Assembly: GCA_031213475.1 (NCBI GenBank)
Contig: JARUPZ010000007.1
Location: 7,621,586-7,685,585 of the forward strand
Length of the DNA: 64,000 bases
Direction of reading: 5' to 3'
Source of the DNA: Nereocystis luetkeana
Lineage: Eukaryota; Sar; Phaeophyceae; Laminariales; Laminariaceae
Part shown: positions 19,501 to 64,000 of the stretch, piece after piece
Position numbering within the stretch: position 1 is the first letter of the stretch
How the letters are laid out: each line of letters begins with the position of its first letter
Translations under genes and position numbers: made by a program
Notes under the pieces: generated by a model
The model's input: the letters and a program-made list of their open reading frames with translations, nothing else
The model's database searches: none
What the model was told of the DNA's origin: nothing

Positions 19501-22500
19501 GCACCGCAGCGATCAAGCGCGCAACATCAACGTCGTCAGCAGGCGGTGAGCGCCATAGGGACGAGGGGAGGGGGGGAGGCAGCGAGGGGGCGAGTGCGAG
19601 GGTGGTTCATGTTCGGGCAGGCAGGCCCAATTGAGCGTTATCAGGGAGACGCGTCCTGCATCTCGTTAGACTATGTATGGAGGTATCGTATCTCTCTACG
19701 GAAGCGCTATGATGTGCACCACCGTAATCACGAACAAAAAGAAGGAAAACCATAGTGAAGACACAAGCGCAAACGCAACCAGGACAGAACAAACAACACC
19801 AGCCAAGCACGCCCGACAAGAACGGACCCAACCATTCTATCGAAAACAAGAACAAAAAATCACAAAAGCAGGTGACCAAACATCAGGTCACCACACAGCA
19901 AGGGAAGAAAGACAACACACAGCTGGACAAACAGCAAACGGCAAACGGATGTACGAACAAACAACCAAGCGAGCGCACGAAGGCAAAGCCAGACAGCCAA
20001 GCAACAGCCAAACAAACCGAACAAGCACGCAAACGCAACACCAAACAAACAAACAAACAAACAGGCGACAGACAGCCAAGAGTCCACGAAAACCAAGCAC
20101 ACCAAAGAACAAACAAAATGTGCGCACACAAACACCGGCAGAGAACGAAAGCAAAGCCAGGGTGCGAATCCAAAGCAAAAGTCAAAATCAAGGGACAACG
20201 TCAAGCAAAAGTCAAAGTCAAAGACCGAGGACAAAATAACGTTAAAAAATACCGGTACCACGTCAAAGACGGCGTCAAATACCAGGTCATCAAGTCGGAG
20301 CCAAGGTCCGCGACTGAATCAGAGACCAATTCACAGACAGACGAAGGCCAAAACCAAGTCGAATACCAAGTCGAACCAAATCAAGGCCAAAACTATTTCC
20401 AAATGAAAGAGCCCGTCAGAGACCGAGTCAAATATCTAGGCAAGGTGACAAACCAGGCCACCAACGAGTCAAAGAAACGAGTCAAAAGACCAATGTAAAT
20501 ACCGGGGCAAAAGCCGAGCCAAAGACACGGACCAAGACAAAGACCAAGCCAAAACCCGAGGCAAACACGGAACCAAGTGGAACCCAGCCGAACAATAAGT
20601 CGAACACCAAGTCAAACACCAAGTAAAAACATTAAAGTCAAAAACTAAAGTCAAAGATCAAAGTCAACGACCAAAGTCAAAGATCACAGTCAACGACCAA
20701 AGTCAAAGATCAAAGTCAACGACCAAAGTCAAAGATCAAAGTCAACGACCAAAGTCAAAGATCAAAGTCAACGACCAAAGTCAAAGATCAAAGTCAACGA
20801 CCAAAGTCAAAGATCAAAGTCAACGACCAAAGTCAAAGACCGAGTCAGGGGCGGATACAAAGGCCGAAAACAACAACAGGTCAAAGACCGAGACAAAGAT
20901 CGAGGCAAAGGCCGAGGCGAATATAGAGACAAAGACCGAGGCAGAGACGGAGGTGAAGCCAAAAGGCCGAGCCTGAGATTGATCAAGTCAAAGACCGACC
21001 CAGGTCAAAGACCAAGTCGAAGATCGAACCGAATCAAAAGACCGAACCAAGCTTAACTCCGAACAAAGTCAAGGATCAAGTCAAGGACCAAGTCAAGGAC
21101 CAAGTGCACTTCAGTTGACCTGGTCCGTCCTTGACGTGGCCCTTGACTTGGTCATTGACTTGGTCATCGGCTTGGTCACTGACTTGGCCATTGACTTGTC
21201 AGGTTTAAGTCAAGGATCAAGTCAAGGACCAACTGCCGTTCAGTTGACCTTGTCAGTCCTTGACTTGATCAGCACTTGACTTGGTCCTTGACTTGATCAG
21301 CACTTGACTTGGTCCTTGACTTGGTCCTTGACTTGGTATTGGCTTGTACCTTGACAACGTACTTGCCTTGCTTGACTTAGCCCTGGAATTCGTCTTTGCC
21401 TTGCCTGACTTGGTCCTTGACTTGTCCTTGGCTTCAGCTTCGCCTTGCTCGACTTGGTCCTTGACCCAGGAGGAGGACCAAGTCCAGCAAGGCAAAGCTG
21501 AAGCCAAGGATACGCGAAAGGCAAAGTCAAGGACCCCGTGAAAAAAGTCAAGGGGCCAGGTCAAGCAACTTGGCTTCTTGATTTGGTCCTTGACTGTGTC
21601 ATTGACAGGTCAAGGGCCAAGTGCCGCCCATTTGGCTCTGTCAGTCCTTGACTCCATCCGTCATTGACTTGGTCCTCAAGGGCACGGTCAACCACACCTC
21701 CACATCTATACCCCTCAATTCGGTAGGGGCCCGGGGCGATCATCGCTGCGCACCTGGCTAAATAGGTGGACTCCCAGAAGCACATACACCGGTACGTAGC
21801 AAAATACAGAGTAATATTATGTGATAACATCCCAGCATCCCAGCACTTATCCATATCGTATGCACCCCCACGTGGGAAACCCGCTGATACGGAGTAAATA
21901 GGACCAAATATTGTTGGTAAAACTAGGTAAATATATAGGTTTTGTGTGTACCATAGGTCCTGTTTACTGTGGTCCCCCGTAGTAGGATATCTTGGGATGG
22001 CCCAGACGCCACAGTTCTTGACTTCGTTTTTGCCTTGCCTGACTTGGCCCTTGACTTGTCCTTGGCTTCTTATTCCCCTTTCTTGACCGAGTTTGAATAC
22101 CAAGTTAAGGGAAGGCCAAACACAAAATCAAGGACCAAGGAAAAACATGCCAAGGACCAAGTCAAGCAACTCAAAGACCGAGAGTCAAAGACCGAACCGA
22201 GCCAAAAAAAACGCTGAAGCGAGTCGAAGACAGAACCATGTAGGCCGAACCAAGGCAGGAACCAAGTCACGCATTAAGTCAAGGACCAAGTCGGAAGGAT
22301 CACGTCGAGGACCAAGGACCAAGTCAAGGACCAAGTCAAGGACCAAGTCAAGGACCAAGTCAAGGGCCAAGTCAAGGGCCAAGTCAAGGACCAAGTCAAC
22401 GACCAAGTCAAGGACCAAGTCAAGGACCAAGTCAAGGACCAAGTCAAGGACCAAGTCAAGGACCAAGGACGCCTGGTACGATAGAAATACTGTAGCACGT

Positions 22501-25500
22501 TTGCAATTTTGTTCTCTGGCTGACGGCGGTCCTTAGCTGAGGAAAGTGAAGGACCAAATCAAGGACAAGGACGAACCAAGCGAACGACTAAGTCAAGGAC
22601 CAGGCCATGGACAAGGACGGACCAAGTCAAGGATCAAGTCAAGGACCAAGTCAAGGACAGAGTCAAAGAGTCAAGGACAGAGTCAAAGACAAAGTCAAGG
22701 ATAATACCAAGGACCAAGTCAAGGACCAAGCCCGGACCAAGTCAAGGACAAGGACGGATCAAGTCACCAAAATCAAGGTCAAGCACCGACCGAGTCAAAA
22801 CCCAAGTCAGGGACCAAGTCAGGGACCAAGTCAAGGACTAACGGCCAAGGACCAAGCCAAGGACCAAGTCAAGGACCAAGTCAAACGCAAAGTCAACGAC
22901 AAAGTCAACCAAAAAGACACAGAAAAAATACCAGACAAAATACGAAGTTAAGAACCAAGTCAAGGACCAAGTCAAGGGCAAACTCAAGGACAAACTCAAG
23001 GATCAAGCCAAGGACCACGCCAAGAACCAAGCCAAGGACCACGAAAATAATCAAGTGAAGGAAAAGGTCGAGGACAAAGCCAAGAACCAAGTCAAGGACC
23101 ACGTCAAGGACAAAGCAAAGGACAAAATCAAAGACGAAGCCACCACGTCAAAGCAACGGAGCGCGGCGTCTCGCTTACCGGACAGGTACTCGTGCGTGAG
23201 GACGGGCAGCGAGTCGTTCACCCTCACCGTGGACATTACTCGGTAGTCCCGTGTGTCCAGCATCTGATCCGGCGAAAGGCGAAAGGTCGACGGGGGAATT
23301 TCGGGCGAGGTTTCGGACGACTAAAAACGCGCCGAAGAAACAACCACCACGCAGAGAAGACACACCTTCAGAACTGCACCTACATTCTCGGGGGCTACTG
23401 GAACAACATGGAATTAGTCTTGCTTGAATTTTCGATGAAGTTTAAAAGGGATACGTTCATACGTACAAGCCTAGTGCTGGAAAAACGACCCAACTCTCGC
23501 TACGAGTACATCGTACTCAAGACGTGGGTTTCGTCGTGCAGAGTTTGTTTGACCTTTTCTGCTACTGAAACAACGATCCCAACCTCAACTCCAAATACGT
23601 AATATCGAACTTTAAGGGTTTTCATAGCCCAAAACGTGGGAGCTGTTCTCAACCCTTTTAGGCCTGGAAAAACGGCACAGCTCAAATTCCAAGTAAATTG
23701 TCGAAATGAAAGAGCGTGGGTGAGAGATAAATAAGGACTAGAATCCCATTACTACTGCAAATATGATCCAACTGAAATTCGAAGTGATCTGTCCTCAACA
23801 AGATGTACGCAGGTGCAGGCAGTTGTGAGGGGGTAGAATAAAACATGTTTACTATTACGGGGGACTGTAGTAAATAGGACCTATGGTACACACAAAAACC
23901 TATACCTGGTACGATTTACTATGTTACTAACAATATTTAGTCCTATTTACTATTACGGGAGGCCACAGTTAATAGGACCTACCAGGTATGGTATAGATAA
24001 AAACCTATATATTTGACCATTTTTACTGACACTATTCGGTCCTATTAACTATGGTCCCCCGTAATACGTACATAATGCGAAAACAATCCAACTCTAATCA
24101 TTCCAACTCGTTTCTCCCCGAGTAATGTGTGCAGTTGGAAAGGGCTTAATTGATACTCCTACTATTGCAAAAATGACCCGATTCTTAATCCCAGTAGCTG
24201 TTATAAATACATTAAGCTTGTGGTGCGGCCGCGGATGGCCCTTCGCGACACACCAACGGCATCCCGACGCAAGACCCGCTAAACACTACAAACGCAGCGG
24301 TGCGCAGGAATGCCAACCACCATTTCCATGTTACAGCACAGCAATATACGACCGGTGCGTAGGAATCCCAACCACCGTTTCCATGTTACAGCACAACAAT
24401 ATACGACCGCCCCCCCCCCCCCCCCCGCCTACCCCCCCGTCATCTTCCCTGCTTCTCTCCATCGTCGTAAAGGCGGCTACCTCGCAACCCCTCTTCCTGC
24501 CCCTGCCCCCAACGCTGCCCCCCCCCCCCCCCCGCCGTTGGCGCCGAATGGAGAAACCCAGGCTTACCTCCAGGTCTCCGGTGGTGGTTGTCCGCGATGC
24601 CACGTACGGCCCGCCGGTGCCCCACGCCACGCTCAACACAGCGCGCCCGACGTACTTGCTGGCCTACTTTGCTCAATGCAGGGCGACGACTATAAACATA
24701 AATGAAAAACACGCACCCGCCGTCGGCGCCGCGTGGAGAAACCCGGGCTTACCTCCAGGTCTCCGGCGGTGGTTGTCCACGATGCCACGTACGGCTCGCC
24801 GGTACCCCACGCCACGCTCGACACAGCGCGCCCGACGTACTTGCTGGCCTACTTTGTTTTGTGCAGGACGATGAATGTGGACAGAAACGAAAACACAAAA
24901 CACAAAACACAAAAAGTGGCGTTGTCAAATGAGGTCAAAACACAACCAGCCACAACCAGATGAGGAGAAACACAATCAACGAGTTCAGTTAGAAAGTGAT
25001 GTAAATTATCAACAGCAACAACACCCGTCAGACGAGCACGAGCGTAAAATCAACGACAGCAGTCAGAACGAACCGAAAACACCAGCAACTTCAGTCTGGC
25101 GCACTGAAACACAAAAATAACAACATCGGCCAGATGCACGAAAAGCACCACCAACATCAGACGGACGACCAAAACACAAAAAAACAGCACCAGTCAGAGG
25201 AAGCAATAAAAACACAAACAACGAAGCACAGAACAGCGCCTTCTGACAAAATCAAATCACTCTGGGCGGAAATATAATGACCGTTTAGACACTAATATGA
25301 AGACCAATTGGTCCTTATGTTTACGAACAGAGTGCTATTGCTCTACCCTCGCCTGTCGGGCAGGCCGGGGGTCATGCGCTGACCAATGAGCAGATCACAC
25401 TGAGCCGACGAACGAAGTCAACGATTCGATTAATCAACCCAGCCGCAACAAACACCGAACAAAAGAATCGCGCAACCAACCAACCATCAAACCAACAGAC

Positions 25501-28500
25501 CCAACTATCGAACAAACAAACAATCAATCAAAACACTCACAGACTAACAGGAAACAAAACAAAACAAACAATAAACAAACGGACAAACAACGGACAGACA
25601 AACAAGCAATGCCCTAACCAACCAGCCAAGCAGACGCAGAAAAACCAACCGACCATGAAGCCGACAACACCAACAATACAAGACAACGCCAATAATACAG
25701 ACCAACAGCACCAACAACCACAAATAACAAGCAACTCACAGCAGCAGCAACAGAGAGTAGCCAACCATTTTACCAATCAACCATCCAACCATTCAACCAA
25801 CCAACCAGCCACCCACCCAACCACTCCAGCGTGCGCCGAACCCCACAAGGCGCAAAGCGATCGGAGGTTGGCAAGCGCTCCTCGCTGGCGGTGGCCGCTC
25901 GTGGCCTGCTTCCGTCGTTTCGGACCGAAACAACAACCGGCTGGCCGACATTTCTGCGCCCGATCTAGTGAACCGTCTATAACGGGGGACCATAGTAAAT
26001 AGGACCTACGGTACACACAAAAACCTATATATTTACCTATTTTTACCATCAATATTAGGTCCTATTAACTATGTTCCCCCGTAATAGGTCCAGCTTCGCC
26101 AAAAAAGATTGAATGTATGGATATTTCAACTCTAAAACCTGTACCCTACTAACCCCTTTCAGTGGGCCTAAACCTGGGACAGAGTTTTCGGGATGAAGCC
26201 GTAGTGGGGGCTTTGTGTGCGCTCTATATCGTTGAAACATAGTCGCTCGACCCCAAACCCTGACGCTCCTGACGCTATACGGCAACGGTTCTTTATGGTG
26301 CCGGCATGCGCCAGCAAACAACACCGGCCCTGTCGCGGCAACCGGCACGACTCCCCGCACACTGGTCAGTCCCGGATGTGCCGAGCGATTTTACGCGCAC
26401 TTCTTACAGCGGGCAGCCGACACTTCTCAAACCGGCAGTGTAGAAGGACCGCTACTATTGATACTTGCCGCAACCCTAACCCCGACTGCCCTGGAAATCT
26501 CGGCGAAACAGTGCAGTACGTGCTGAAAAAATGGTGCGCACCATCAACCACCTTGGTCGAAGCTGGACCAAGGCGTACGAACAAAAAAAATGCTGTCCCA
26601 AGCTGGGCCGAGTCGCATATTATACACTGGTACGATCTGCTGGATCCCCCGTGTCAATGTTCGTGGCATCAAAAATAACATTACCGGCTACGGCTTTTTT
26701 TTTTAAGGCATTATCCCATATCCTACGTTATGTGATATGTACCACCGACCGCACCCGCACCTTCATAGTCGGCACTCCGGCCATGTCTGGGGGGAAGTTC
26801 ACCACGTGCACGTGTCCATCGTTGCACCCGGAGACGATATCCCTGCCCTCACAAAACCACCCCAACCACCACCGCCATCGACGTCCCCCCCCAAAAAAGA
26901 AAGGAGGCGAGCAGGCAATGCACGGTGTGATGTCCGACGGGCGGGTGACCGACGGGGTGGGGTGGCCGTCGGTCGGTCGGTCGGTCGGTCGGTCGATGGA
27001 TCGATCGCTCGGTCAAAACGCGGCGGAACTTTTGGAATATAGACAAGTATCTTAACGTTGGACAAACTTGTACGTGAACAACAGGCAATGTGGTGTACCT
27101 GATACCAGGTACCTGGTATACAACAGACAATGAACGTGAACGATGTAAGGTGTTACGGTAGCATACTACGGTAGGGACAGGCATACACAAATCATAGACT
27201 AGTATAGGGCACAGCCAAGGACACATAGGCATAGACATGAAACAGAACACAGACGTAGCAAAGGCCGTAGAACAGAGACTCACGCACGGAAGTACCAGGT
27301 ATAAAAAAAACAACACAGAAAGACTGTACACAGTAGTACGTGAACATACACGAGAGAAAGCCAAAGGCGCCCTGCGAAGCGTACAGGACGAGCGCCGTCG
27401 TCCCAACCCTCTATACACAGGCGCACGCACGCAAGAACGGCTTGCAACTCTGACCCTGCCACCTTGGTCGGGGGCAGCGGCGAATGCACCTGGGGTCGGG
27501 TGGCGTCAGTCCCGCCGTCGCGATTCTACAATTATTAGTTGTGCATTGATTTTTTGTAGGGTTAGGAAAGGATAGGTGAGTGGGTGGCGGGTGAGAAGGT
27601 AAACGCATCGGCGTACTAGGCCACTACAGTAGTTGCACTGCCTATAATATACACGTGGGGTGATGTTATGTGTCTGTATGATGTTCCCGTGGGGTTGAAC
27701 CTATTGTGTGTTGTAAGGGTTGGGGGGTTACCATTACGGTCGCGAGTATCAAGTTCACGCTATTACGGGGGACCATAGTTAATAGGACCAAATATTATTT
27801 GTAAAAATGGTCAAGTATATAGGTTTTTACCTATACCATAGGTCCTATTAACGATGGCCCCCCGTAATAGCATCTGACGTCGCCCCGTAGACAAGGAAAA
27901 AAAACACCGCATGCAAACCCAGGGGTGCATCCGAACTTTTTGAGCTGTACGGTGCACTACCCCCTTTACAACTGCATCCGCGTTTATAGGGACGCCGCGT
28001 ACGCGTACTTGAATTAAGACGACGGAAAAAAATGTACTATTTATAGCATGTACGAGGAGGTCCCCGCACCGAAGGCAAGGGGGGGGGGGGGGGGGGAATG
28101 AAACATTGTCTCTGTGGGTACGTTTACTGCGTCGCGATCTCCAGCAGCACAACGGGCCGCGAGAAGTTTCTCGGGGCCTCTCTTCCCTCCAAGAGCACGC
28201 CCAGAGTCACCCGTGCTACACTGGTGGGCCACGATCACGCCTGCCCACCCTTTCCTAACACTACTGCTTCACCGACCATTTGAAGCAAGCACGTGCATTG
28301 GACTAGATGAGGCTTTACGCCCTAGTCCGTGGTCTTACGCTCGGGGTACACTCCCAAGCTAAGCTCAGACTCAACGATGTACGAGACTCAAAGCATGTAC
28401 TCAATACTCCTTGTCCTCGGAGGGATAAAAGCAGAAACTGCTACAGTAGTATCTGCTACGCTGCGTGGATGGGATGGTCAGCTCCTTGCTCCCAACTTAC

Positions 28501-51032: not shown

Positions 51033-51140
51033 TATTACGGGGGCCATAGTTAATAGGACCTATGGTACACATAAAAAACTATATATTTAACCATTTTTAC
51101 ATACAATATTTGGTCCTATTAACTATGGCCCCCCGTAATA
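51033..51140. mobile_element. MITE copy 6
   Basis: 108 bases, with ends TATTACGGGGGCCATAG and CTATGGCCCCCCGTAATA, and a family body with TAATAGGACC and GGTCCTATTA. Confidence 0.82.
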
Positions 51141-51292
51141 GGCCGTCGTTTTGTTGGTCGCTACACGTACTTGTTTGTTTTAATACAACAGTAATAATAG
51201 TATGCATGTGGGTCCCAAAGGTCCAAAGCTAAAATACTTCATACTACGGACGACAGAGTTCTTCCTCTGTACAGCAGTGTAGTACTATTATT

Positions 51293-52914
51293 ATTATTCC
51301 TCTTGCCATCTGACAATGTGCAGCATGATCTTCAACATGGATCACTCATAACTTTCCCGAAAGAAGAAAACCTCGGAAACAAAAGGAAACCCATGCACCA
51401 AGTCTACCTCCCTTCCGTGCCAACTTTCAGCTTGTCTACTCTATTTGCTGTATTTGCTCCTTCCTTCTCATTACGTTCTATCCTTAAATCCTAAACTGCA
51501 TCCAAGCTCCATCCCCACGGCATCGGTGTGGGTCTGTCGTCCCTCCCTCCCCTGTTCCTTCTTCCTTCTTGGCGGTCCCTAAGCTGAAGCTTGAACCTCG
51601 ACACCCTCCTCGAAATGGCGACCTGAGTGGTCACCGAGACGATTTGGAGCAGGCGTTCCTTCACTATCCCCTTCCTTGCCATCGACCCACCATCCCTCCC
51701 CCCCACGACGCTAGCTGCCAGCTGGTCGATGAAGTTGCTGCCCTCTACCCCGAGGCGCCCAAAGCTTTCCGCTGCTAAGGTGGCTAGTTTGTGGCTCCGC
51801 TCGTCGAAGGACACATGTCCCGGACGCGCGTAGTGTTGGCGCTTGCGCGCCTCGGAGGTAGAGGCAGCTGATCCATCATGATCAGCGCTGCCTCCTCGCA
51901 GGTGGACCTGCGCTTGCGGGTCTGCATGGGTGACGTCCAGCAGGATGGACTTTTCCCTGTATTCCCTTTTAGGAGCGTCCCGAAGACCTCCTCTCCTGAC
52001 AACGATGTCCATTAGCAGGTTCCGGTCTGCAGTGAACGGTTCGCCGCTCTCCACTTGGTGAGGGATTCCCAGCCGCTTCAGCGTGCGGGAGATCGCGTGA
52101 ACCAACGGTTGATGTTGGTTCACCTGTGCCCCTGCTCTGGGACAGATGCGTGCGTGGCGTGTGTCTATGTCGACTGCCTCGCAGCAGGGGCACCTCACCG
52201 CCACGTGCTCCTCGATGCCTATGAAGCGCCTTGCCATGCCCACGAACTCCTCTGCTGGTATGACACGGAGCGAGTCTGTTGGCCTAGCCCGAAGGCAAGC
52301 AGTGGCTCCTGCTCCTTGTAGGCTCCTGTAGCGAGCTTTGGCGAAGGCCTTGGTCTCGCTCCCCCCCAGCGGGTCGCCTGGTCCAGGTGGGCGTGCAATC
52401 TCCGGTAGCCCCTCCAGCGAAGCTGTGTGTGCAGCGTGTCGACCCTGATTCACCAGCTTGCCCAACCTCTGTTGAGCCTTCCGGGAGTTGGTGGTTACGG
52501 CATCATGCGCCGCCAGCATGTCGGCTTCAGGGGGCCCTGGGACCAGGTCCCCCTCTGCACCCATGCTCCATTCCAGCCAGGATTCGGGGACGATGCCCTC
52601 CATCGCTTCTTTTGTCACGCCCCACGTGTCCCTGATCTCTCGCAGGCTGCCCCCGAGCTCAGCAATGTTGCTCGAATGACGGAGACCCCTCTTTACCCTG
52701 TCTCCTAGCGGGCCCGTGAGGTCTGCTAGAACCTCCGGCAGGATGCCCACCCTACTCCCGATGGAGGCAGACATTCGCCTCGCTTCCGTCGACGGCAGCC
52801 CTAACCCTCCTGCTCCCGTCGAAAGGCGTGCTTGGGCTTGTTGGTAGGGTTTTCGAGTCAGTTGGCTGGCCGGGCACCCCTCCTGGAAAAACGACTGTGC
52901 GTCCGCCGCTCCCG
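51293..52914 (-). mobile_element. 5'-truncated LINE of the RING-LINE family, with target-site duplication
   Basis: On the minus strand it starts inside the open frame (PGAADAQSFFQEGCPASQL), runs through the C-terminal domain to the stop at 51491-51493, and has a 3' untranslated region of about 185 bases ending CTGCACATTGTCAGATGGCA then an (AAT)n tail. GTAGTACTATTAT at 51280-51292 recurs at 52915-52927, a 13-base duplication typical of target-primed reverse transcription (its last bases merge with the tail). Confidence 0.9.
51491..52774 (-). pseudogene. C-terminal part of the LINE protein (zinc finger and endonuclease-like)
   Basis: 427 codons from the first ATG, or about 474 from the truncation point at 52914, without a stop. 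It matches the end of the plus-strand LINE throughout: MSASIGSRVGILPEVLADL, then CPCCEAVDIDTRHARICPRA, NLLMDIVVRRGG, ILLDVTHADPQ and SFDERSHKLATLAAESFGRL. The reverse transcriptase is absent, so the copy is dead. The intact frame suggests it is fairly young. Confidence 0.88.
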
Positions 52915-54421: not shown

Positions 54422-54530
54422 TATTACGGGGGGCCATAGTTAACAGGACCAAATATTGTTAGTAAAAATGGTTAAACATATAGGTTTTTATGTTCACCTT
54501 AGGTACTGTTAACTATGGTCCCCCGTAATA
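54422..54530. mobile_element. MITE copy 7
   Basis: 109 bases, with ends TATTACGGGGGGCCATAG and CTATGGTCCCCCGTAATA and TA at both edges. It lies just upstream of a LINE terminus. Confidence 0.82.
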
Positions 54531-54552
54531 GTCTTTTTTTAGAACGCGACAC

Positions 54553-54596
54553 TGCACATTGTCAGATGGCAAGCATAATAATGAAATCTTTAATAT
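54553..54596 (+). mobile_element. LINE 3' terminus directly upstream of the large LINE
   Basis: CTGCACATTGTCAGATGGCA plus a tail ATAATAATGAAATC. It ends where the next LINE begins, in the same orientation, giving a tail-to-head junction. Confidence 0.65.
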
Positions 54597-54600
54597 CAGG

Positions 54601-55068
54601 CGATACCGGGCTCCCGTGATTTGAACACGAGGTCCCAAGACGCCCGTCTTACAGCGGGGAGTTTTGTTCGGAGGGGGTCAACAACTACGAGGGGTCATAA
54701 TAGAGGAGGCGGCGCTCAAAGCCAGATAAGGACTTCTAGCCCACTACCGCCGGGTGCGATACCGGGCTCCCGTGATTTGAACACGAGGTCCCAAGACGCC
54801 CGTCTTACAGCGGGGAGTTTTGTTCGGAGGGGGTCAACAACTACGAGGGGTCATAAAAGAGGAGGCGGTGCTCAAAGCCAGATAAGGACTTCTAGCACAC
54901 TACCGCCGGGTGTGATACCAGGGACCCGGGATTTGAACCAGAGGTCTCACGACGCTCGCCTTGCAGCGGGGAGTTTTCTCCAGAGAGGGTCCTCAACTAC
55001 GAGGGGTCACAATAGGGGAAGGGCAGCCCTCAACGCCGGTGCAACTCCTACGAGGGTAGGGCCTCCTC
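54601..55068 (+). repeat. 156-base tandem repeats at the LINE N-terminus
   Basis: Three units start at 54601, 54757 and 54913. The first two are almost identical and the third diverged. Each encodes 52 residues (PGSRDLNTRSQDARLTAGSF, then VRRGSTTTRGH). Weaker copies recur near 55070, 55430 and 55610-55830, so this region grew by repeated duplication. Confidence 0.85.
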
Positions 55069-56885
55069 CCCCGATGACGCTGGGGGCGACACCGGACTCT
55101 CAGAACCTAAGAGCGGTCTGCCTTCCCCCCCGTCGGAGAGCAAGGAGTGGTCAGCAACGCCAAAGGCCCAGCGATCCAATGGATGTTGAACCCGTTCCGG
55201 AGGAGGCACCTCAAGGGGGAAATGAGACCACTACGGCGAGAGCTAGTTTGGGGGCGAGAGTAGGTGGGTCAACGCCGACAGAGAACAGGAGGGCAAACGG
55301 TGGACTCGGGAGCTTCGCCCAGCCGGGGATGTTGAGGGGATCCACGCCGGAGAGGCACCAACAGGGGTACTTCTCGCCCCGGGTCGGCAATAGTGCCCAC
55401 AACACGGTGAGACCTTCTCTGCAGATGGCACCGGGTGTTGCATCGAGCTCTCTGGACTCGAGCCCTGGGTCGCAGGACCAACGTCGTGGAGCGAGCAGCT
55501 TAACCCGGAGGGGGCTTTGGTGTAGGGGCACGCCCGCAAGGAGCCAGCAGGGGTGCCGTGCACTTCCCGTCGATAGTATTGCTCAAAGTGGGGTGAGGTC
55601 TTCTCCCCCACTACCGCCGGGTGCGGAACCGGGCTCCCGGGACCTGAACCCGATATCTCAAGACGCTCGTGTTACGGCTGGGAGCCTTGTCCGGAGGGGG
55701 AACTTGGGCGGACTCACATCTTTGAGGAGCCAGTTGGGGTACGGGGCAGCTTTCGTCGACGGTGGAGCTCACACTAGGGTAGGGTTTCCTACTCCGCTAC
55801 CAATGGGGGCGGCACAGGCCTCTCAAGACCCAAGAGCGGTCGCCCCCCCCCCCGTTCAGGAGGAGACATCGCACGAGGACGATGCACCTAGCACGGAGAG
55901 AACTAGGGTAGAAGTGAGAGGGGGTCTCTATCGCACCAATAGCGGTACCACCGTTGGAAGAGGTCCCAACGGAGCGGCGGCGCAACTCGGACCGTCCACA
56001 AGGGCGGTAACAACAATAGACGAACGGCGGCGGGCCACGACGAGAGTACCTGTAGAGGACCTTATATCCACCAGGACAAGGGCACGCACCCGGATGGCCG
56101 CTAGGGCCGTCGCACAATCATCGGAGGAGGAGGAAGGACGCCAACCTCCCACCGAGTCGCTTCACGGATCCTCCCGTCAGCAGCCAACGACGACGCAGCT
56201 TACGTCATCGATAGCACTTTTGGAGCCGGCACCGTCGTCGCCGAAACCATCTCCGGATACACCCCGTTCAGCACAGCGGGCGCGAGAAACCACGCAACCA
56301 CCGACGGCAACGGGTGCGGGGACTCCCTTGACGACCCCCCTTCCGCTTGGGGTATCCGCCATGGAAGGTTCGCCGCCGTCGCCACCATCCCCGCCACCGC
56401 GTCTACCGACAACTACCCGTCCCTCGACAGACACACCACTTCTGACGCCGGACATGATCCTTGCGCTCGAATCGTCAATGCAGTCAGCGGCTAGAACGGC
56501 ACAGTTGGCGCCACCAAGTTCATCACAACCGACGTGCGCATCGACACAGGGTGGAGGAAGTTCGGAACCCCCGCTGACGTCCGAACCACCGCCATCGTCA
56601 CCACGGCCACCATTGCAGACGTCAGCAGAAAGAGGGCAGCCCCAGCAGAAGACTTCGGAAGACTGCTGCGTGTGCTACGAGGCCTTGGTGGCCCCGATGG
56701 TATATCTAGGGAACTGCCCTCACCGGCTGCACCTACCGTGCTACGCCGCACTTCGTGTTAGGGCAGGGGCCGACCTGCGCTGCCCGGCGTGTCGGGCGAC
56801 CGTAACAATTGGCGAAGCCGACGGGATGGCGTCCCGTCAGCACAGTGACGAGATTATGACAGAGGCCCTAGCGATCGCGCGGTAG
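54621..56885 (+). CDS. LINE polyprotein, segment 1: repeats, Pro/Ser/Thr-rich region and RING-H2
   Basis: About 754 codons up to the first internal TAG. There is no ATG at the left edge; the frame is open from 54594. The first ATG is at 55074. Residues 1-155 are the 52-residue repeats, 160-680 are low-complexity Pro/Ser/Thr/Arg-rich (disordered). The end is a textbook RING-H2: CCVCYEAL, NCPHRLHLPC, RCPAC (about 56664-56800), with Cys and His spacing C-x2-C, C-x-H-x2-H-x2-C, C-x2-C. RING-H2 domains usually recruit E2 ubiquitin-conjugating enzymes; whether this one does is unknown. Confidence 0.8.
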   Translation: MNTRSQDARLTAGSFVRRGSTTTRGHNRGGGAQSQIRTSSPLPPGAIPGSRDLNTRSQDARLTAGSFVRRGSTTTRGHKRGGGAQSQIRTSSTLPPGVIPGTRDLNQRSHDARLAAGSFLQRGSSTTRGHNRGRAALNAGATPTRVGPPPPMTLGATPDSQNLRAVCLPPRRRARSGQQRQRPSDPMDVEPVPEEAPQGGNETTTARASLGARVGGSTPTENRRANGGLGSFAQPGMLRGSTPERHQQGYFSPRVGNSAHNTVRPSLQMAPGVASSSLDSSPGSQDQRRGASSLTRRGLWCRGTPARSQQGCRALPVDSIAQSGVRSSPPLPPGAEPGSRDLNPISQDARVTAGSLVRRGNLGGLTSLRSQLGYGAAFVDGGAHTRVGFPTPLPMGAAQASQDPRAVAPPPVQEETSHEDDAPSTERTRVEVRGGLYRTNSGTTVGRGPNGAAAQLGPSTRAVTTIDERRRATTRVPVEDLISTRTRARTRMAARAVAQSSEEEEGRQPPTESLHGSSRQQPTTTQLTSSIALLEPAPSSPKPSPDTPRSAQRARETTQPPTATGAGTPLTTPLPLGVSAMEGSPPSPPSPPPRLPTTTRPSTDTPLLTPDMILALESSMQSAARTAQLAPPSSSQPTCASTQGGGSSEPPLTSEPPPSSPRPPLQTSAERGQPQQKTSEDCCVCYEALVAPMVYLGNCPHRLHLPCYAALRVRAGADLRCPACRATVTIGEADGMASRQHSDEIMTEALAIAR

Positions 56886-56951
56886 GAGATACCGGCCGAG
56901 AGGGGAAGGGGGGCATCCACAAGGACCACAGGGGGCGAGAGGGGCGAACGA

Positions 56952-57437
56952 TTGATATGTAGCATTTGTCATAGACTGGTGGAGGAGACTGAACGCGTAC
57001 AGCTGTCCTGCTCGTGCGACGTGCATCGCCGCTGCGCTTTAGGCTTTTGCGAGGACGCAATCCCTCGAGCCAGATTCATCGGCGAGGCACGCCAAGTCAC
57101 GTGCCCGAACCCCGCCCTAAACGAAGTTCAACAAGAGGTGAACCTCCGCCCCCTCCTGCAACAGATTCGTACTATTGGCAGGTCGGCGGACACGCAGGAC
57201 GAACGCGATTTAGTCAACAGGGTCACCGTTGCCGAGAACCGCCTTCGGAGCAGGACCCACATTGTGCCGGAAAGGGTGGACTTGACACTGAACGCTACAG
57301 CGCGAGACGAGGAGAACCTCTCTTGGGACTGGCGTAGCACGATTCCACAACCGTATGCGCTACGTGGGGTCTGCGACAGGACTATGGAAGACGACGAGAG
57401 GTTTTCTTTCTCCGGTTGGCTCGTCCACAGGAGATGA
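56952..57437 (+). CDS. LINE polyprotein, segment 2: RING-like zinc module
   Basis: In the same frame as segment 1, after the TAG at 56883. It contains CSICHRLVEETERV, then SCSCDVHRRCALGFC and a later Cys (TCPNP), a partial RING-like set of ligands (about 56958-57110). About 100 further residues without a recognised fold lead to the TGA at 57435-57437. The frame stays open on both sides of each stop. Confidence 0.65.
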   Translation: MICSICHRLVEETERVQLSCSCDVHRRCALGFCEDAIPRARFIGEARQVTCPNPALNEVQQEVNLRPLLQQIRTIGRSADTQDERDLVNRVTVAENRLRSRTHIVPERVDLTLNATARDEENLSWDWRSTIPQPYALRGVCDRTMEDDERFSFSGWLVHRR

Positions 57438-57611
57438 GCCGTTGAAAGCGTAGAGGGAGCAGACAATAGGGGAGACGACCGGTTTGGGGTAGCCATTCGG
57501 GAAGTAACAGGACCGTCGCGTCGGAGAACGTTCCTCCTCACGGAAATTCTGCCGAGGATCCATCTGAGGTACGACCGCGCTTCCGATCGGGGAGCCTATC
57601 AACAGCGTCAG

Positions 57612-58364
57612 TTGGAAATCCTATGGCGATCGGTGATCTCGGGTGTGGAGGAGGCCACAAGCCAGGACGAAGGCCGCCAGCAAGTACAAGGAGGGAGGGG
57701 AGACGACGCCGAAACATCGCGCACCTATTGCGGCCAGGTTTTAGATGACTCTGCTGGAGAGTCGGGGGGCAGCCACGTGCGAGTACCTATCCCGTGCGCC
57801 CACGGAGGGTTTGTGCATGCACGCTGCATGCTGGACCGGGCAGATCGCATCGCGAGAGGGCATGCCGACCCGAGGTCCTGCGTAGTGTGCCAGTCGTCGT
57901 GGCCGGAGGGGGGCAGGCCACCCCACCCGGCGGAACTTGCCAGAGGGCTGCCCATGTCCGAGCAGGGGGGGAGGTGGGCGGCGGTGAGTAGTGCCCAGCA
58001 GTTCGCCGCCCTCCTTCAGCGGAGTGACCTCGGCGCGGAGTCAGCCAGTTACGTGACGACCGGGGTTCACAACACGTTCGAGCACATGGTGAGTGCCCTG
58101 GGGAGAAGCCCAACCTCTTCGTTCGTGTTGTGCTCCCTTTTCAGCGATGCACTGGATCTACCGCAACAGGCCTACCTCGATTTCCCCCGAACGAGGGAAT
58201 GGGAAGCGGCGGCCGCCCACTATCGTACGCTGTTCGCCGCGTACGGCATCCGACCCCAGAACGTACTACTCCGACTCCCAAACCGGAGGCTCTACATTGG
58301 ACCTCATGTCCAAGAGTATCTGGCGGGCTTTGACGCCGAATGGGAAGAACGACTGACGAGGTAG
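57612..58364 (+). CDS. LINE polyprotein, segment 3: RING-like module, older duplicate
   Basis: In the same frame and open from 57438. It contains TYCGQVLDDS, PIPCAHGGFVHARCMLDRA and SCVVCQSSWP, then a conserved helix-rich block (GVHNTFEHMVSALGRSPTSS, FPRTREWEAAAAHYRTLFAA). The first Cys of the module is replaced by Arg compared with segment 4. The segment ends at TAG (58362-58364), where the duplicate reads TGG in ACTAGGTGGACCCTCGG. Confidence 0.7.
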   Translation: MEILWRSVISGVEEATSQDEGRQQVQGGRGDDAETSRTYCGQVLDDSAGESGGSHVRVPIPCAHGGFVHARCMLDRADRIARGHADPRSCVVCQSSWPEGGRPPHPAELARGLPMSEQGGRWAAVSSAQQFAALLQRSDLGAESASYVTTGVHNTFEHMVSALGRSPTSSFVLCSLFSDALDLPQQAYLDFPRTREWEAAAAHYRTLFAAYGIRPQNVLLRLPNRRLYIGPHVQEYLAGFDAEWEERLTR

Positions 58365-58424
58365 ACCCTCGGTGTCCAAAGGGCGCTGGAAGCAGGTGAC
58401 GCGCTGCCTCCTTTTCCGACGGCG

Positions 58425-61400
58425 GTGGCGGCCCCACCGGAGCGGACGGACTCGGCGCAGGGGGATGACCGGTTAGCAAGGGGGCAGCATGGACAGAGAG
58501 GTGCCGCTCCAGGTTCGCCAGAGAGCCGAGAGATCACAAGGGACACCGCGCTAGTAGGCCTATGTATCTATTGCGGTGAGGACATAGAAAACTCAGATAG
58601 GAATCCAGAGGTCGACCATCTGAGGACAACCATCACTTGTGACCATGACAACGGACAGTTAGTACACGCCGGCTGCATGCTGGATCGTGCGGAACGCCTC
58701 GCATGTGGGCACACAGACCCGCGGCCATGCGTCGAGTGTGGCTCTGAACGGCCCGTAAGAACCCGACCTCCCCATCCGGCAGAATTAACCGAGGACCTTC
58801 CCAGACCACGGCCGGGGGGAAGGTGGTCGGCAGTAGGAGGTGCCCTGCAGTTCGCCGAACTTCTTGAGGAGGAGGGCACCCAGCTGGTACCGGCCAGTTA
58901 TATGACGACTGGTCACCACCACACGTTCGAGCACATGGTGAGAACCCATGGAAGGAGCCCAACCTCTTCGTTCCTGCTGTGCTCCCTGTTCAGCGATGCC
59001 CTGGGCATGCCTCGAGCTTACCTCGACTTCCCCCGCACGAGGGAATGGCAAGCGGCCGCCGCCGACTACCGTGAGCGTTTTGCCGCGTACGCCATCCGAC
59101 CGAGGGATATCATGCTCCGACTCCCAAATCGGAGGATCTACATCGCACCACAAGCCCAAGAGTTTCTGGCAGGCCTCCATGCCGAATGGGAGGAACGCCT
59201 GACTAGGTGGACCCTCGGGGTCCGAAATGCATTGGAGGCAGGTGACGTGGTGCCTCCTTTTCCGACGGCAGTGGCGGACACGCCAGGAGGGGCAGGTCAG
59301 GCGCTGGAGAGCGGGCCGTTAATAGGGGGGCAGAACGATCAGGGCGGCACTGCTGGAAATGCCACAGAGAACCGTCAGGCCACGGGGAACAGGGACGATA
59401 CGTCAGCGGGACAAGTGGGGACCCCCCGGACAACATCCAGCACAGCCCTGGCCAGGTGCACCCTCGGGTTACTAAACGTGCGGGAAGGAGGTGATGCGCG
59501 AACTCCTCTTCCGACGGCAGAGTGGACCCCCGGGGCCCCAAAAGCGTTGGAGGCAGGGGACGATTTGCCTCCTTTTCCGACAGCGGCGGTGTCCACAACG
59601 GAGGGAACGGTCCCGGCGGCGGAGAGCGGTCCGCAAACTAGGGGGCAGGTGGAGCAGGGAGGAGCTGCTGGGAGTGCCGTAGGAAGCCGTCACACCGAGG
59701 GGGGTAGAGATGCCGCGCTAGCGGGACAAGTGGAGATCCTTCAAGAAAGGCCCAGTACCGTCTCTGCAACATTTGCGGCGGCAACGTCCCCTAGATCAAC
59801 TGGAAGCGAATCGCCCTCGCGCGAGGGCGGCCAAGGTGGAATGGAGGCAAATGTTGGAGGTTCCTGTCCAAGTGCTGCGCGGCCTCTGCCCCCGGAGGCC
59901 GAAACGACACCACCGGGAGGAGAAGCCCTGGCGTCGGAGGGTGACTCGCGGATAGGGGGGCAAGTGGATCAGAGAAATGCTGTTGTAGTAGCGATGGCAA
60001 ACCTTCAAACAGCCAGAGATAGGAATGTCACGCCCTCGGGACGCTTGGGGGTCCCCCTGACACCATCCGGCGCCACCCCAGCAATAGCTGGGAATACTTC
60101 CTCTGAACCTGGTAGCGCAGCCAGGGAGGGGGGGGGCACAGGAGGTGGACGACGTCGACCGCGTGGGTCTAGGAGGGGGTCCCGAGCGACAAGCACTGGG
60201 AGAGAGGCCGTCACGAACCGGGGAAGAATCCCTCGACCCGGCGGCAGTGAGCCACCCTCGGTCCCTGAACCGAGAGGGGCCAGCGAGTCGCTCCCGACGC
60301 CCGGATCGAGAGGGGGCAGCGAGCTTCGTTCGGATCCTGGATCGAGAGGGGGAGGTGGCGAAGAGAGAGAACTCCCCAGGGAAGGAGAAGGTGGCGAGGG
60401 GGGAGGATCAGCATCGGGGGGCGTAGGGCGACTCCGTGCATCCATTGACACCAGTCAAGACGGCGTGATGTGCGGGGGATGCCGAGCGGCAGTTGCTCGG
60501 GGGCACCGAGTGGTAGGGCTGCCATGTGGAAACCAGCACGTTATGCACGCGCGGTGTGTGGTGGAAGCTATTCGAAGGAGTGGGTCACACGCACAACTCA
60601 TTTGCGCTACACGAGGGTGCACAGCCCGCCATGGGAGACGGGAATCACTGGATGCAGCAGTTCAGGCTGATCCTGGACTCCGGGTTACGGTCGCAGGACT
60701 TGGAGGAAGGCCGGACAACAACTACGATGAACGGGGGGAAGAGCTTTGTTACCCGTGGGACCAGAATTCGTTAGGAATAGCAGGGCCACTCGATGATGTT
60801 TCTCTCGAGCATCTCCAACAACGTTTCATCACCGTTGTTAAGGTGCAGCCGGGGCTAGCTACTGTCCATGCCAAGCTTCTCACCCACGTGCTCGGTCTCC
60901 TGAACCACGCCCTCGGAGCGCATCGGCCAAACAGACACTCCGAGACGCCGAGTTCGCTCCTGAGGGCCATCAAGCTGTGGTACATAGTGCCAGCACTGCT
61001 ACACTCGCAGGACAGCCGCGTGAAGCGACGCGAGAGATTCGCGTCCGTCGAACGTGGTGACATCACGCTTATTCTCCCGTGGTTGATGGAGTACACCAGT
61101 CGAGCATCGACACGGCGCAGGGGGCCAACCTACGAAGCCACAGACGCGGCTAAGTACGAGAGAGCGTCGTCAGCCTGTCGCCACTCGGGCGGGGTTTCAG
61201 TGGCAGCACGCGGTCTTCTCGCGGAAGCTCGAGCGCCCGGCGACGAGGTGACATGGGAGCGGGGGAAAGCCAAATTCCCGGGGGAAGACCGTGCCTCCAT
61301 CTCCGAGTCGGCAGTGGCAGCGGTGGCAGCAAGCTCTACGGAACCGGAGGAAGGGAGTGTTCCCAACTGGCGTCCAGAGCAAGAGTTCGATTCGCAGGTG

Positions 61401-63986
61401 GCCCTCGACATCATCAACTCCCGAAATGCGTTATCAGGCGCGGGGAGTGACGGTCTACGCTTCTCACACCTGCAGTCGATCATCAGGACCGGCTTCGGTC
61501 GCGAGAAATTTGGAGCTAGCATCGAGGCCCTTTGGAGGCGGATCTTCGACGACCCCGGTGCATTCCCGCCGGAATTCTGGCAGCTCTTCTTGCAGTCCAA
61601 CCTCACTGCCTTGGGGGAAAAATGTCGACCCGCATGTGTAGGTATGACATGGAGACGACTTCTCGCAGCTGGGGCGATGCGGCAGTGGCGGCCACGGCTG
61701 GAAGAGATTAATCGTGAGGTAAGGCAGTTTGGGGTTGGGGTTCGAGGGGGGGTGGAGCAGGTAGCTCTACGCGCCCGGGTGCACCATGAGGCAAGAAACT
61801 GGCTCATCCTAACTGACTGTTCCAACACCTTCAACACTGTAAAGCGGACGGCAGTACTTGCCGAAGCGGCCACTTGCGTGCCCGCGCTCACGCCGTTCAT
61901 TGCTAAATGCTACGGCGAGAGGCCCGCCCCTACGTTCTTCCAGATGGATTCGGGGGAGCGGCGCAAAATTGACTGTTCCTGTGGAGTGCAGCAAGGGGAT
62001 GCCATGGGCCCGGCGCTGTTCTGCATGCCACTGCTGCCAATACTCAAGCGGGTCCGTGAGGAGTTCGAACCCCGGGGTGTTGAAGCCTTTGCCTACCTCG
62101 ATGACATCAGCATCGGCATGTCAGAGATCACACCGGACACGGTGAGAGTAGTACCCTTTCTCCAGCACGAGCTGTGCGAAATAGGCATTGCCATTAACCC
62201 CAGAAAGACGGTTGCTTTGCCTCCCAAAGGGCATATGCCTACGTCGGAAGAGATAGCACTTCTGAGGGGCATCGGTGTTCGCATTGCGGAAGGGGGTGGG
62301 GTAAAGGTGGTTGGCGTGCCCATAGGCACTGATGCATTCGCGGTGAACAGCGCCGTGGAGATAGTCCGAGATGGGGGAGCAGAGCAACTCGCGCGCATCC
62401 TGCCGCGTATGCCGGACAAACAGTCGGCGAACCTCATCGCCACCAGTTCAATGGTGCAGCGGACCTCCTACATTGAGCGGGTAATGGACCCGGAGCTGTC
62501 ACTACCCGCGTGTCAGCGGGCAGACACTAGCGCAATGTGGATGCTCGAGCGCCTTCTCGAGCTTCCAGGGACAGCGGACGAATCGCCGTTCTTTGCGGAC
62601 GGATGCCCGGCGAACCGGTTGACGCTACAGCCGCACCAGAAAGCGCAGGCGAGCCTCTCCACAGGGGCCGGGGGGTTTGGACTGTCGTCGGCTGAATCAA
62701 GGAGAATGTCAGCGTCCATCGGGAGCTTAGTGGCGACGGTGCCAGAGGTCCTCGCCGACCTCTCCGGTTCATTAGGGGAAAAAGTCCGAAGGGAGTTGCC
62801 CAATTCGGACCTCGTTCGCCGCATATGGAGCAGCATCAGGGACCTTCGCGGTATCCATGGGGTATCGGAGGAGGCAATGGCAAACGTAGTCCCGGAAAGT
62901 TGGCGGAACAGGGCGTTCCGCGCAAGCGAGGAAGGAGGGACAGAACAGTATGATGTGGAGGTACTGCCGGCGCATGACGCCCAAACGATTAGCTCCCACA
63001 AGGCGCAATACAAGCTGGGGCAGCAGATCAACCGGGTACGGTACCAACGGTACGTTGCTTCTCTGAACCAGCTCCCCGAGGTAGCAGACCCGTCGGATCG
63101 GGACGACGTGTTCGGGGGGACGGAAACCAGAGGTCTTGCCAAGGCTCGGCAACGGAGCCTATCGGGACCAGGCGCAGTCGCCTGTTTGCGTGCAAGGCCC
63201 GTGGACATGGCACGTATCATACCGGCTTCTGAGTTCGTGTCTATGGGACGGCGCTTCCTGGGAATGGAGGAGCCCATAGCGGCGAGGTGCCCCTGCTGCG
63301 AAGCGACGGATGTCACCACACGTCACGCGCGTACATGCCACCGAGCAGGCGCACAGGTTAACCAGCATCAGCCGCTAGTCCACGCGCTGTCTCGCACCTT
63401 TAAGCGGTTGTCCATCCGCCACCAAATGGAAAGCGGAGCGCCCTTCAACGCCGATAGAAACCTCCGCATGGACATAGTGATAGAGAGGGGAGGCCTCCGA
63501 GACGCTACGTCATCAGAGTACCGCAACAAGGCGATACTCCTCGACGTCACGCATGCAGACCCCCAAGCAAGGGTCCACATGCGGGCTGGCAGCGCTGATC
63601 AAGACGGTTCAGCCGCTTCCACTTCTGAGGCGCGAAAGCGCAACCACTACGCTCGTGCAGGACAAGTGTCCTTCGACGAGCGCAGCCATAAACTTGTCAC
63701 TCTCGCGGTGGAAAGCTTTGGACGCCTCGGGAAGGAAGGTAGCGATTTCATCGACCAGCTGGCGGCGAGCATCGTTGGAGGAACGGACGGAGGATCTTTA
63801 GCAAGAAAAGGGGTTTGTAAGGAGCACCTTTTCCAGGTCATATCGGTGACTACCCAGGTCGCGATCTCGCGCAGAGTGCACCGATATATGCTCGCCCTGC
63901 GAGACCGCCAGGCCGCCAGGGGGAGAAGGGAGGAGGAGGGAGGACTACTACCGATGGCGTGGGGGTGTAATGTAGATGCGGAGTAG
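58425..63986 (+). CDS. LINE polyprotein, segment 4: RING-like modules, reverse transcriptase, zinc finger and nuclease-like domain
   Basis: 1,853 codons in the same frame (open from 58365; no ATG until 58677). A RING-like module (CIYCGEDIENSD, TCDHDNGQLVHAGC, CVECG, 58563-58745) and the helix-rich block repeat segment 3. Linker repeats (LEAGDVVPPFPTAV, LEAGDDLPPFPTAA) follow. RING 5 lies at about 60471-60635 (CGGCRAAVARGH, LPCGNQHVMHARC). The reverse transcriptase spans about residues 980-1380: LTDCSNTFNTVKR (first Asp 1131), VQQGDAMGPALF, and YLDD at 1224-1227. The C-terminus has CPCCEATDVTTRHARTC (about 1623-1639), then RMDIVI and ILLDVTHADPQ, the D...D pattern of R2-type restriction-like endonucleases. 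This part is intact and ends at TAG. Confidence 0.9.
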   Translation: MAAPPERTDSAQGDDRLARGQHGQRGAAPGSPESREITRDTALVGLCIYCGEDIENSDRNPEVDHLRTTITCDHDNGQLVHAGCMLDRAERLACGHTDPRPCVECGSERPVRTRPPHPAELTEDLPRPRPGGRWSAVGGALQFAELLEEEGTQLVPASYMTTGHHHTFEHMVRTHGRSPTSSFLLCSLFSDALGMPRAYLDFPRTREWQAAAADYRERFAAYAIRPRDIMLRLPNRRIYIAPQAQEFLAGLHAEWEERLTRWTLGVRNALEAGDVVPPFPTAVADTPGGAGQALESGPLIGGQNDQGGTAGNATENRQATGNRDDTSAGQVGTPRTTSSTALARCTLGLLNVREGGDARTPLPTAEWTPGAPKALEAGDDLPPFPTAAVSTTEGTVPAAESGPQTRGQVEQGGAAGSAVGSRHTEGGRDAALAGQVEILQERPSTVSATFAAATSPRSTGSESPSREGGQGGMEANVGGSCPSAARPLPPEAETTPPGGEALASEGDSRIGGQVDQRNAVVVAMANLQTARDRNVTPSGRLGVPLTPSGATPAIAGNTSSEPGSAAREGGGTGGGRRRPRGSRRGSRATSTGREAVTNRGRIPRPGGSEPPSVPEPRGASESLPTPGSRGGSELRSDPGSRGGGGEERELPREGEGGEGGGSASGGVGRLRASIDTSQDGVMCGGCRAAVARGHRVVGLPCGNQHVMHARCVVEAIRRSGSHAQLICATRGCTARHGRRESLDAAVQADPGLRVTVAGLGGRPDNNYDERGEELCYPWDQNSLGIAGPLDDVSLEHLQQRFITVVKVQPGLATVHAKLLTHVLGLLNHALGAHRPNRHSETPSSLLRAIKLWYIVPALLHSQDSRVKRRERFASVERGDITLILPWLMEYTSRASTRRRGPTYEATDAAKYERASSACRHSGGVSVAARGLLAEARAPGDEVTWERGKAKFPGEDRASISESAVAAVAASSTEPEEGSVPNWRPEQEFDSQVALDIINSRNALSGAGSDGLRFSHLQSIIRTGFGREKFGASIEALWRRIFDDPGAFPPEFWQLFLQSNLTALGEKCRPACVGMTWRRLLAAGAMRQWRPRLEEINREVRQFGVGVRGGVEQVALRARVHHEARNWLILTDCSNTFNTVKRTAVLAEAATCVPALTPFIAKCYGERPAPTFFQMDSGERRKIDCSCGVQQGDAMGPALFCMPLLPILKRVREEFEPRGVEAFAYLDDISIGMSEITPDTVRVVPFLQHELCEIGIAINPRKTVALPPKGHMPTSEEIALLRGIGVRIAEGGGVKVVGVPIGTDAFAVNSAVEIVRDGGAEQLARILPRMPDKQSANLIATSSMVQRTSYIERVMDPELSLPACQRADTSAMWMLERLLELPGTADESPFFADGCPANRLTLQPHQKAQASLSTGAGGFGLSSAESRRMSASIGSLVATVPEVLADLSGSLGEKVRRELPNSDLVRRIWSSIRDLRGIHGVSEEAMANVVPESWRNRAFRASEEGGTEQYDVEVLPAHDAQTISSHKAQYKLGQQINRVRYQRYVASLNQLPEVADPSDRDDVFGGTETRGLAKARQRSLSGPGAVACLRARPVDMARIIPASEFVSMGRRFLGMEEPIAARCPCCEATDVTTRHARTCHRAGAQVNQHQPLVHALSRTFKRLSIRHQMESGAPFNADRNLRMDIVIERGGLRDATSSEYRNKAILLDVTHADPQARVHMRAGSADQDGSAASTSEARKRNHYARAGQVSFDERSHKLVTLAVESFGRLGKEGSDFIDQLAASIVGGTDGGSLARKGVCKEHLFQVISVTTQVAISRRVHRYMLALRDRQAARGRREEEGGLLPMAWGCNVDAE

Positions 63987-64000
63987 GAAGCGTGGCGTAT

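Follow-up and report, generated by a model that had tools for sequence, protein, structure and literature searches.

What kind of element carries a series of zinc modules in front of a reverse transcriptase (RT), and what might those modules do? We addressed this question at one locus of Nereocystis luetkeana, in a stretch of 64,000 nucleotides (contig JARUPZ010000007.1, positions 7,621,586 to 7,685,585 of the forward strand, assembly GCA_031213475.1), hereafter the window. An earlier note, made from the sequence alone, had read positions 54594 to 64000 as a long interspersed nuclear element (LINE) coding for at least five RING-type modules in one frame of about 3,130 codons. The answer that we favour, and hold to be somewhat on the probable side, is a multi-copy LINE that encodes one protein with zinc modules, RT and endonuclease, in which module 1 acts as a RING E3 ubiquitin ligase. 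The protein would run from a low-complexity region with tandem repeats through a RING-H2 (module 1), RING-like modules 2 to 5, the RT and a CCHC zinc knuckle to a restriction-like endonuclease, and at full length it is predicted to exceed 3,000 and probably 3,500 residues. The single full-length frame was pieced together from overlapping sibling copies. In the window, the domains were read as follows, L030, L031 and L033 being siblings of the window copy and L032 a copy of a second family:

56664-56792, + strand: module 1, RING-H2, C-x2-C-x13-C-x-H-x2-H-x2-C-x13-C-P-A-C, then R (pattern, Pfam and PDB sequence matches)
56958-57104, + strand: module 2, RING-like, seven C/H ligands (ligand pattern; no profile match)
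57372-57437, + strand: degenerate half module, C-x2-C...H-x2-C in L032 (by eye)
57720-57890, + strand: module 3, RING-like, one ligand lost in the window copy but eight of eight found in L030, L031 and L033
57918-58319, + strand: conserved domain behind module 3 (no Pfam match)
58563-58739, + strand: module 4, duplicate of module 3, eight ligands (repeat comparison, ligand pattern)
58767-59165, + strand: duplicate of the domain behind module 3 (repeat comparison)
60471-60620, + strand: module 5, RING-like with eight ligands, the last two spaced C-x4-C (pattern, weak profile support)
61695-62219, + strand: RT core (RVT_1), with YLDD at 62094-62105 (Pfam, E 6.1e-14)
63288-63338, + strand: CCHC knuckle, C-x2-C-x8-H-x3-C (motif)
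63366-63713, + strand: putative restriction-like endonuclease region with R-x-D, D and K-x2-H-Y (motif reading after excerpts of PMC5678591)

The copies elsewhere in the genome (465 Mb in 1,987 contigs searched) carry the argument that this order belongs together. The RT-endonuclease stretch gave at least 48 matches at 45 loci, 45 of them at 85-100% identity (the window itself being the 100%) and three at 65%, and the module 4-5 stretch gave at least 71 matches at 55 loci. The earlier note had pointed to copies without the RING modules as the sign of a chance fusion; instead, 24 of the 34 RT matches that reached the upstream end of the query had the module 4-5 region no more than 2.5 kb upstream. 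The remaining ten comprised three of the second family, one of which (L032) was read and has modules 1, 2, 3 and 5, and seven unread matches, which may be either truncated or truly without these modules. Moreover, at three other loci that were read the domains follow in this order, with 98-99% identity in nucleotides across 6.9 to 9.1 kb. In L030 (contig C23), a run of 2,954 codons is open without a break and aligns with window residues 175-3093 at 97.5% identity; L031 (C13) offers 2,258 open codons, its match to the window starting at residue 896; and in the C19 copy (L033/L034) the frame counts 3,011 codons, its start lying about 420 codons upstream of the first residues of the window copy. 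Farther out in the C19 copy, at about 2259-3491 of L034, another open frame of 411 codons, in sequence that looks repeated by eye, overlaps the 3,011-codon frame; for this reason the true N terminus is not fixed and may lie further out, and the protein may be longer still than the 3,011-codon frame implies. Since near-identical siblings without the in-frame stops of the window copy share it, the order of zinc modules, RT, zinc knuckle and restriction-like endonuclease is, on this comparison of copies, the element's own build and not a chance fusion.

That a host RING gene or repeat was fused by chance to a LINE fragment at the window locus might be argued from the three stops and the 5' truncation of the window copy, but the three other loci with the same order at near-identity speak against it, as does the second family, whose protein is about 62% identical and arranges modules 1, 2, 3 and 5 alike; we regard such a fusion as hardly credible, and it was rejected on the sibling copies. 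A host RING gene lying beside a LINE was likewise ruled out, by the shared frame in the siblings and the shared order in the second family. Within 200 kb downstream, no further protein copy was found at E 1e-3; scans of viral contigs and of genome contigs gave no relative, and a phage tblastn search gave no match.

Next, the identity of the zinc modules was assessed. The strict eight-ligand RING pattern occurred three times in the protein (modules 1, 4 and 5) and in none of 2000 shuffles of the same protein. Module 1 showed the RING-H2 pattern C-x2-C-x(n)-C-x-H-x2-H-x2-C-x(n)-C-x2-C and matched Pfam zf-RING_2 at E 8.4e-5, and its 27 PDB sequence matches listed at E up to 1 were mostly RING proteins, with the E3 ligases DTX1/DTX2, AMFR, TRIM56 and RNF168 among the best. 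DTX1 was matched at E 2.2e-4 with a single sequence and at E 1.4e-4 with a two-row profile, which listed four Deltex chains at E up to 0.01. The PHROGs families gave otherwise weak matches, and one at E 6.3e-5 between module 1 (56601-56882) and phrog_908, a phage family of unknown function. For module 5, all 11 PDB matches listed at E up to 5 were RINGs, the best being RNF126 at E 0.034, which is suggestive. Modules 3 and 4 had the RAG2 PHD as their best PDB match (E 0.3, not significant), with insignificant Pfam values of E 0.58 for module 3 (zf-RING_2) and E 0.14 for module 4 (RAG2_PHD), and module 2 had one PDB chain at E 3. Module 1 is thus a RING by profile evidence, though below the Pfam curated cut-off, and the sole such module; modules 2 to 4 are called RING-like from their ligand patterns, and module 5 is weakly RING-like. 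Five C/H modules do precede the RT and one is a RING-H2, as the earlier note had it, but its "five RINGs" overstates the profile evidence. The well-conserved domain behind modules 3 and 4, of about 133 residues, had no Pfam match.

Module 1 has the C-P-x-C-R ending known from active E3 ligases. In module 1 of both families, a V stands before the second Cys, a P after the seventh ligand and an R after the eighth, which we take for the residues that contact the E2 and the linchpin in active E3 RINGs. All eight module 1 ligands were identical in the window copy, L030, L033 and L032, the four among the five copies read that extend to this module. The rough ratios of nonsynonymous to synonymous substitution rates (dN/dS) between the window and L032, for which synonymous distances were large (0.5 to 2.2) and module 1 offered just 50 codons, were 0.035 (module 1), 0.077 (endonuclease), 0.108 (RT), 0.138 (region before the RT), 0.17 (module 2), 0.21 (module 3), 0.34 (module 5) and 0.55 (linker from module 1 to module 2). 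In windows of 50 residues, 1,777 in number and drawn from the 1,984 of 3,130 residues that aligned with module 4 matches left out, module 1 shared the top value (90% identity) with a stretch where the RT begins, and endonuclease windows reached 88%. With its low dN/dS and tied-highest identity, module 1 is, on this comparison of two families, about as constrained as the RT and the endonuclease.

Module 1, RT and endonuclease are under strong purifying selection, as might also be expected of a host gene domesticated from a LINE and kept for the benefit of the host. We consider this origin very improbable: the copies are scattered over 45 to 55 loci, many of them contain stops or are incomplete at an end, and short duplications were seen at three copies inspected, which is a mobile-element pattern; the window copy, too, is broken.

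A weightier alternative keeps the same element and the same single protein, but takes all zinc modules, module 1 included, to be non-catalytic binders of the element's RNA, of target DNA or of partner proteins, a role that zinc fingers at the N terminus play in R2 and related elements. In the window copy the C-P-x-C ending is absent from modules 2-5, which also lack a significant profile match, and N-terminal zinc fingers are the rule in such LINEs (excerpts of PMC5678591 and PMC4640811). The V, P and R residues of module 1, which we take for hallmarks of active E3 RINGs and which both families keep, speak against this alternative, as do the E3 ligases that are its best PDB sequence matches; we give it a substantial chance while doubting that it is correct.

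The favoured reading of module 1 as an E3 within a single LINE protein is itself burdened by several observations. Strong conservation would fit a structural zinc module, too. The Pfam RING scores of module 1 all fall below the curated cut-offs (best 23.2 against 27.3 bits), its best single stretch in DTX1 reached an i-Evalue of only 0.095 in the two-row profile search, modules 2-4 gave no significant profile match in Pfam or PDB sequence searches, and two structure predictions failed, with mean pLDDT (predicted local distance difference test) values of 33.0 and 33.7, so that no fold was shown. Among the copies read there is none free of defects and none in which the whole protein is open: L030 has a frame change near the C terminus and one changed knuckle residue, L031 is 5'-truncated and starts after module 1, the C19 copy has an internal stop that ends its 3,011-codon frame at window residue 2592, and the frame of L032 is broken, with its pieces in different frames. 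Finally, the knuckle reads CX2CX8HX3C in both families, its last spacing one residue under the published LINE pattern.

Weighing both sides, we consider E3 activity of module 1 plausible from its sequence; an engagement of the ubiquitin system, which the earlier note suggested, is plausible for this one module only. In the favoured reading, module 1 would recruit a host E2 enzyme as a RING E3, and ubiquitination would be directed at the element's own particle or at a bound host protein; modules 2 to 5 would, most simply, form a docking or nucleic-acid-binding scaffold. That the element spreads by target-primed reverse transcription is shown indirectly, by truncated 5' ends, by short duplications of the target and by a 3' end that is fixed and carries an A/T-rich tail. 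More tentatively, and with more doubt than belief on our side, the element could be a LINE with its own ubiquitin ligase in a stronger sense, in which module 1 is an active E3 needed for retrotransposition, acting in cis on a host restriction factor or remodelling the particle, and modules 2-5 are a substrate-docking array enlarged by internal duplication.

The extent and state of the window copy were then established with the help of L009, the continuation of the same contig past the window end and the source of the 3' end:

54601-64000, + strand: 5'-truncated LINE copy, its body ending about 180 bases beyond the window at L009:4179 (comparison with the contig continuation)
54594-54600, + strand: candidate 5' target-site duplication TATCAGG, 7 bp, by eye; 3' twin at L009:4180-4186
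54594-63983, + strand: reading frame through modules, RT, knuckle and endonuclease region (open reading frame (ORF) reading; 3,130 residues, interrupted)
54600-55067, + strand: three tandem repeats of 156 bp, frame-preserving (repeat comparison)
55395-55514 and 55581-55700, + strand: degenerate copies of the 156-bp repeat (repeat comparison)
55179-55181, + strand: in-frame ATG, candidate start only, also in L032 (SDPM[D/E]V, by eye)
56883-56885, + strand: in-frame stop TAG, absent from L030
57435-57437, + strand: in-frame stop TGA, absent from L030 and L031
58362-58364, + strand: in-frame stop TAG, absent from L030 and L031
63984-63986, + strand: terminal stop TAG (ORF reading)

The window copy is an insertion from 54601 to about 64179. 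Its 3' untranslated region, in L009, ends with CTGCACATTGTCAGAAGGCAA and an A/T tail, directly after which TATCAGG recurs (by eye, the 7-bp match being short). The copy is 5'-truncated because the start of the element lies inside the frame, at the candidate TATCAGG duplication, and the ATG at 55179 is only a candidate start because the frame of the C19 copy is open far upstream of it. The single open frame of about 3,130 codons did not survive inspection: three in-frame stops break it in the window, and an open reading was rejected, while siblings are open for 2,954 and 3,011 codons. The window copy is dead or dying, and its relatives carry longer open frames. An alternative genetic code for the TAG, TGA and TAG stops was considered as well, but the aligned siblings (L030 at all three positions, L031 at two) have none, which makes decay the simpler reading.

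To which LINEs does the element belong? Truncated 5' ends, duplicated target sites and a constant 3' end followed by an A/T-rich, simple-repeat tail mark the copies. Duplications were recognised by eye at three of them (the window copy, L031 and a minus-strand relative), that of L031 being 10 bp long and like the one of the window copy; in L030 the surrounding microsatellite hides any duplication. L030 lies inside an (AAT)n microsatellite (L030:500-580 and 9640-9690) and the tails of several copies are AAT-like, a possible target preference. Insertion in 28S ribosomal RNA genes, the target of R2, was not seen, with no Rfam match in the 64-kb window, L030 in its microsatellite and L031 in sequence like a miniature inverted-repeat transposable element (MITE). 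The profile search of the translation recommended earlier recovered RVT_1 and module 1 (below cut-off), module 5 weakly and modules 2-4 insignificantly; the endonuclease region had no Pfam profile match, and its predicted model was unusable. An NCBIfam search gave one weak RT match, and of four PDB chains listed for the RT, the only RT-bearing ones were two R2 proteins (E 0.12 and 0.15, not significant). The RT is of the non-LTR (long terminal repeat) type, as judged from the 5' truncations together with the R2 proteins listed, the latter not significant alone. According to excerpts of PMC5678591, LINEs of the restriction-like endonuclease (RLE) type have a CX2-3CX7-8HX4C knuckle between RT and endonuclease, and an endonuclease with a variant PD-(D/E)XK core and a distal KX2KY. 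Here, the endonuclease motifs follow in the order R-M-D, D and K-R-N-H-Y or K-R-Q-H-Y, by motif reading only. As far as these searches reach, the element is a LINE of the RLE type, as read from its motifs, with its clade and exact membership not placed.

The second family also bears on how the modules arose. Between L032 (contig C21) and the window protein, identity was 62.5% over the part that runs from residue 1916 of the window to its C terminus and 52% over residues 528-1100; L032 keeps modules 1, 2, 3 and 5 and the half module between 2 and 3, with a single copy of the module 3/4 unit. Judged by eye, a fragment in the window belongs to the same family:

51292-52914, - strand: 5'-truncated copy of the second family with a 13-bp flanking duplication, GTAGTACTATTAT (+ strand, by eye)

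The repeats of modules 3 and 4 are spaced 846-849 bases apart in the window copy. Synonymous distance (dS) was 0.65 between the module 3 and module 4 domains of the window and 0.77 between window and L032 for module 3, which fits module 4 being a duplicate of module 3 that arose in the window lineage after the families split. Loss of the module 4 unit in L032 still has to be reckoned with, because protein identity points the opposite way (74% for the module 3 domains between families, 67% for the two copies of the window). The repeated RING duplication that had been proposed was therefore borne out for modules 3 and 4 and shown for no other modules.

Other repeats were observed in and around the window. 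Direct repeats of 565 bp at 7996-8559 and 10075-10639, which are 99.6% identical and, at a distance of about 2.1 kb, enclose a 64-bp tandem array, look like a short non-autonomous LTR element. A dispersed MITE-like repeat of about 110 bp with inverted ends (TATTACGGGGG...) occurs at 21893-21985, 23852-24066, 25977-26088, 27760-27872, 51033-51140 and 54422-54531, and the sequence in which L031 is inserted resembles it. Long arrays of 12-bp-like units (AAGTCAAGGACC and similar) fill 20572-23139 in both orientations. By eye, a 3'-terminal motif CTGCACATTGTC-RGAW-GGCAA (with mismatches; it could fold into a 5-bp hairpin) plus an A/T-rich tail ends at least three repeat subfamilies, with sites at 51302 (-), 54099 (+) and 54552 (+) and in L009, L010, L013, L014, L020, L028 and L029. 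No coding part of the RING-LINE family was found beside the motifs in L010-L029, and the repeats that bear it are possibly short interspersed nuclear elements or truncated LINEs using a common 3' end. Ten host ORFs gave no Pfam match.

To our knowledge, a LINE protein is normally a compact set of domains with RNA-binding, RT and nuclease functions. That a RING-H2 is as conserved as the RT and the endonuclease suggests that the element needs it. Among the papers listed by open-access full-text searches, none describes a RING in a LINE in its title or abstract start (Repbase and most subscription journals lie outside this scope), and excerpts of PMC1564403 mention RING fingers only with Slx1, which suggests that a variant of the RLE-type LINE with a RING-H2 is new as far as the open-access literature reaches. 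With the RLE-type LINEs (R2, NeSL, Utopia, R4/Dong, HERO and CRE), the element shares zinc modules at the N terminus and an RT in a single ORF, together with a knuckle of CCHC type and a putative C-terminal restriction-like endonuclease with a K-x2-x-Y motif; it differs from them in its RING-type modules, in its more than 3,000 codons, in a knuckle that ends H-x3-C here and H-x4-C there, and in that no single target gene was seen. With the RING-H2 E3 ligases (Deltex DTX1/DTX2, AMFR, TRIM56 and RNF168), module 1 shares the zinc-ligand pattern and the C-P-x-C ending, whereas it is fused in frame to an RT and an endonuclease and its E3 activity is predicted only. The nearest parallel lies in NeSL and Utopia: according to excerpts of PMC4640811, Utopia has one to three N-terminal zinc fingers, and an Ulp1-like protease occurs in one Utopia and in nematode NeSL, likewise RLE LINEs with a ubiquitin-like-pathway domain upstream of the RT. 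No protease family appeared among the Pfam matches of the pieces of our frame; the domain is a cysteine protease there and a RING-H2, possibly for ligation, here. If module 1 is catalytic, the role of ubiquitin in LINE mobility would become directly testable inside one protein, and this retrotransposon, carrying its own ubiquitin ligase, would be the counterpart of the NeSL and Utopia elements with their Ulp1-like proteases.

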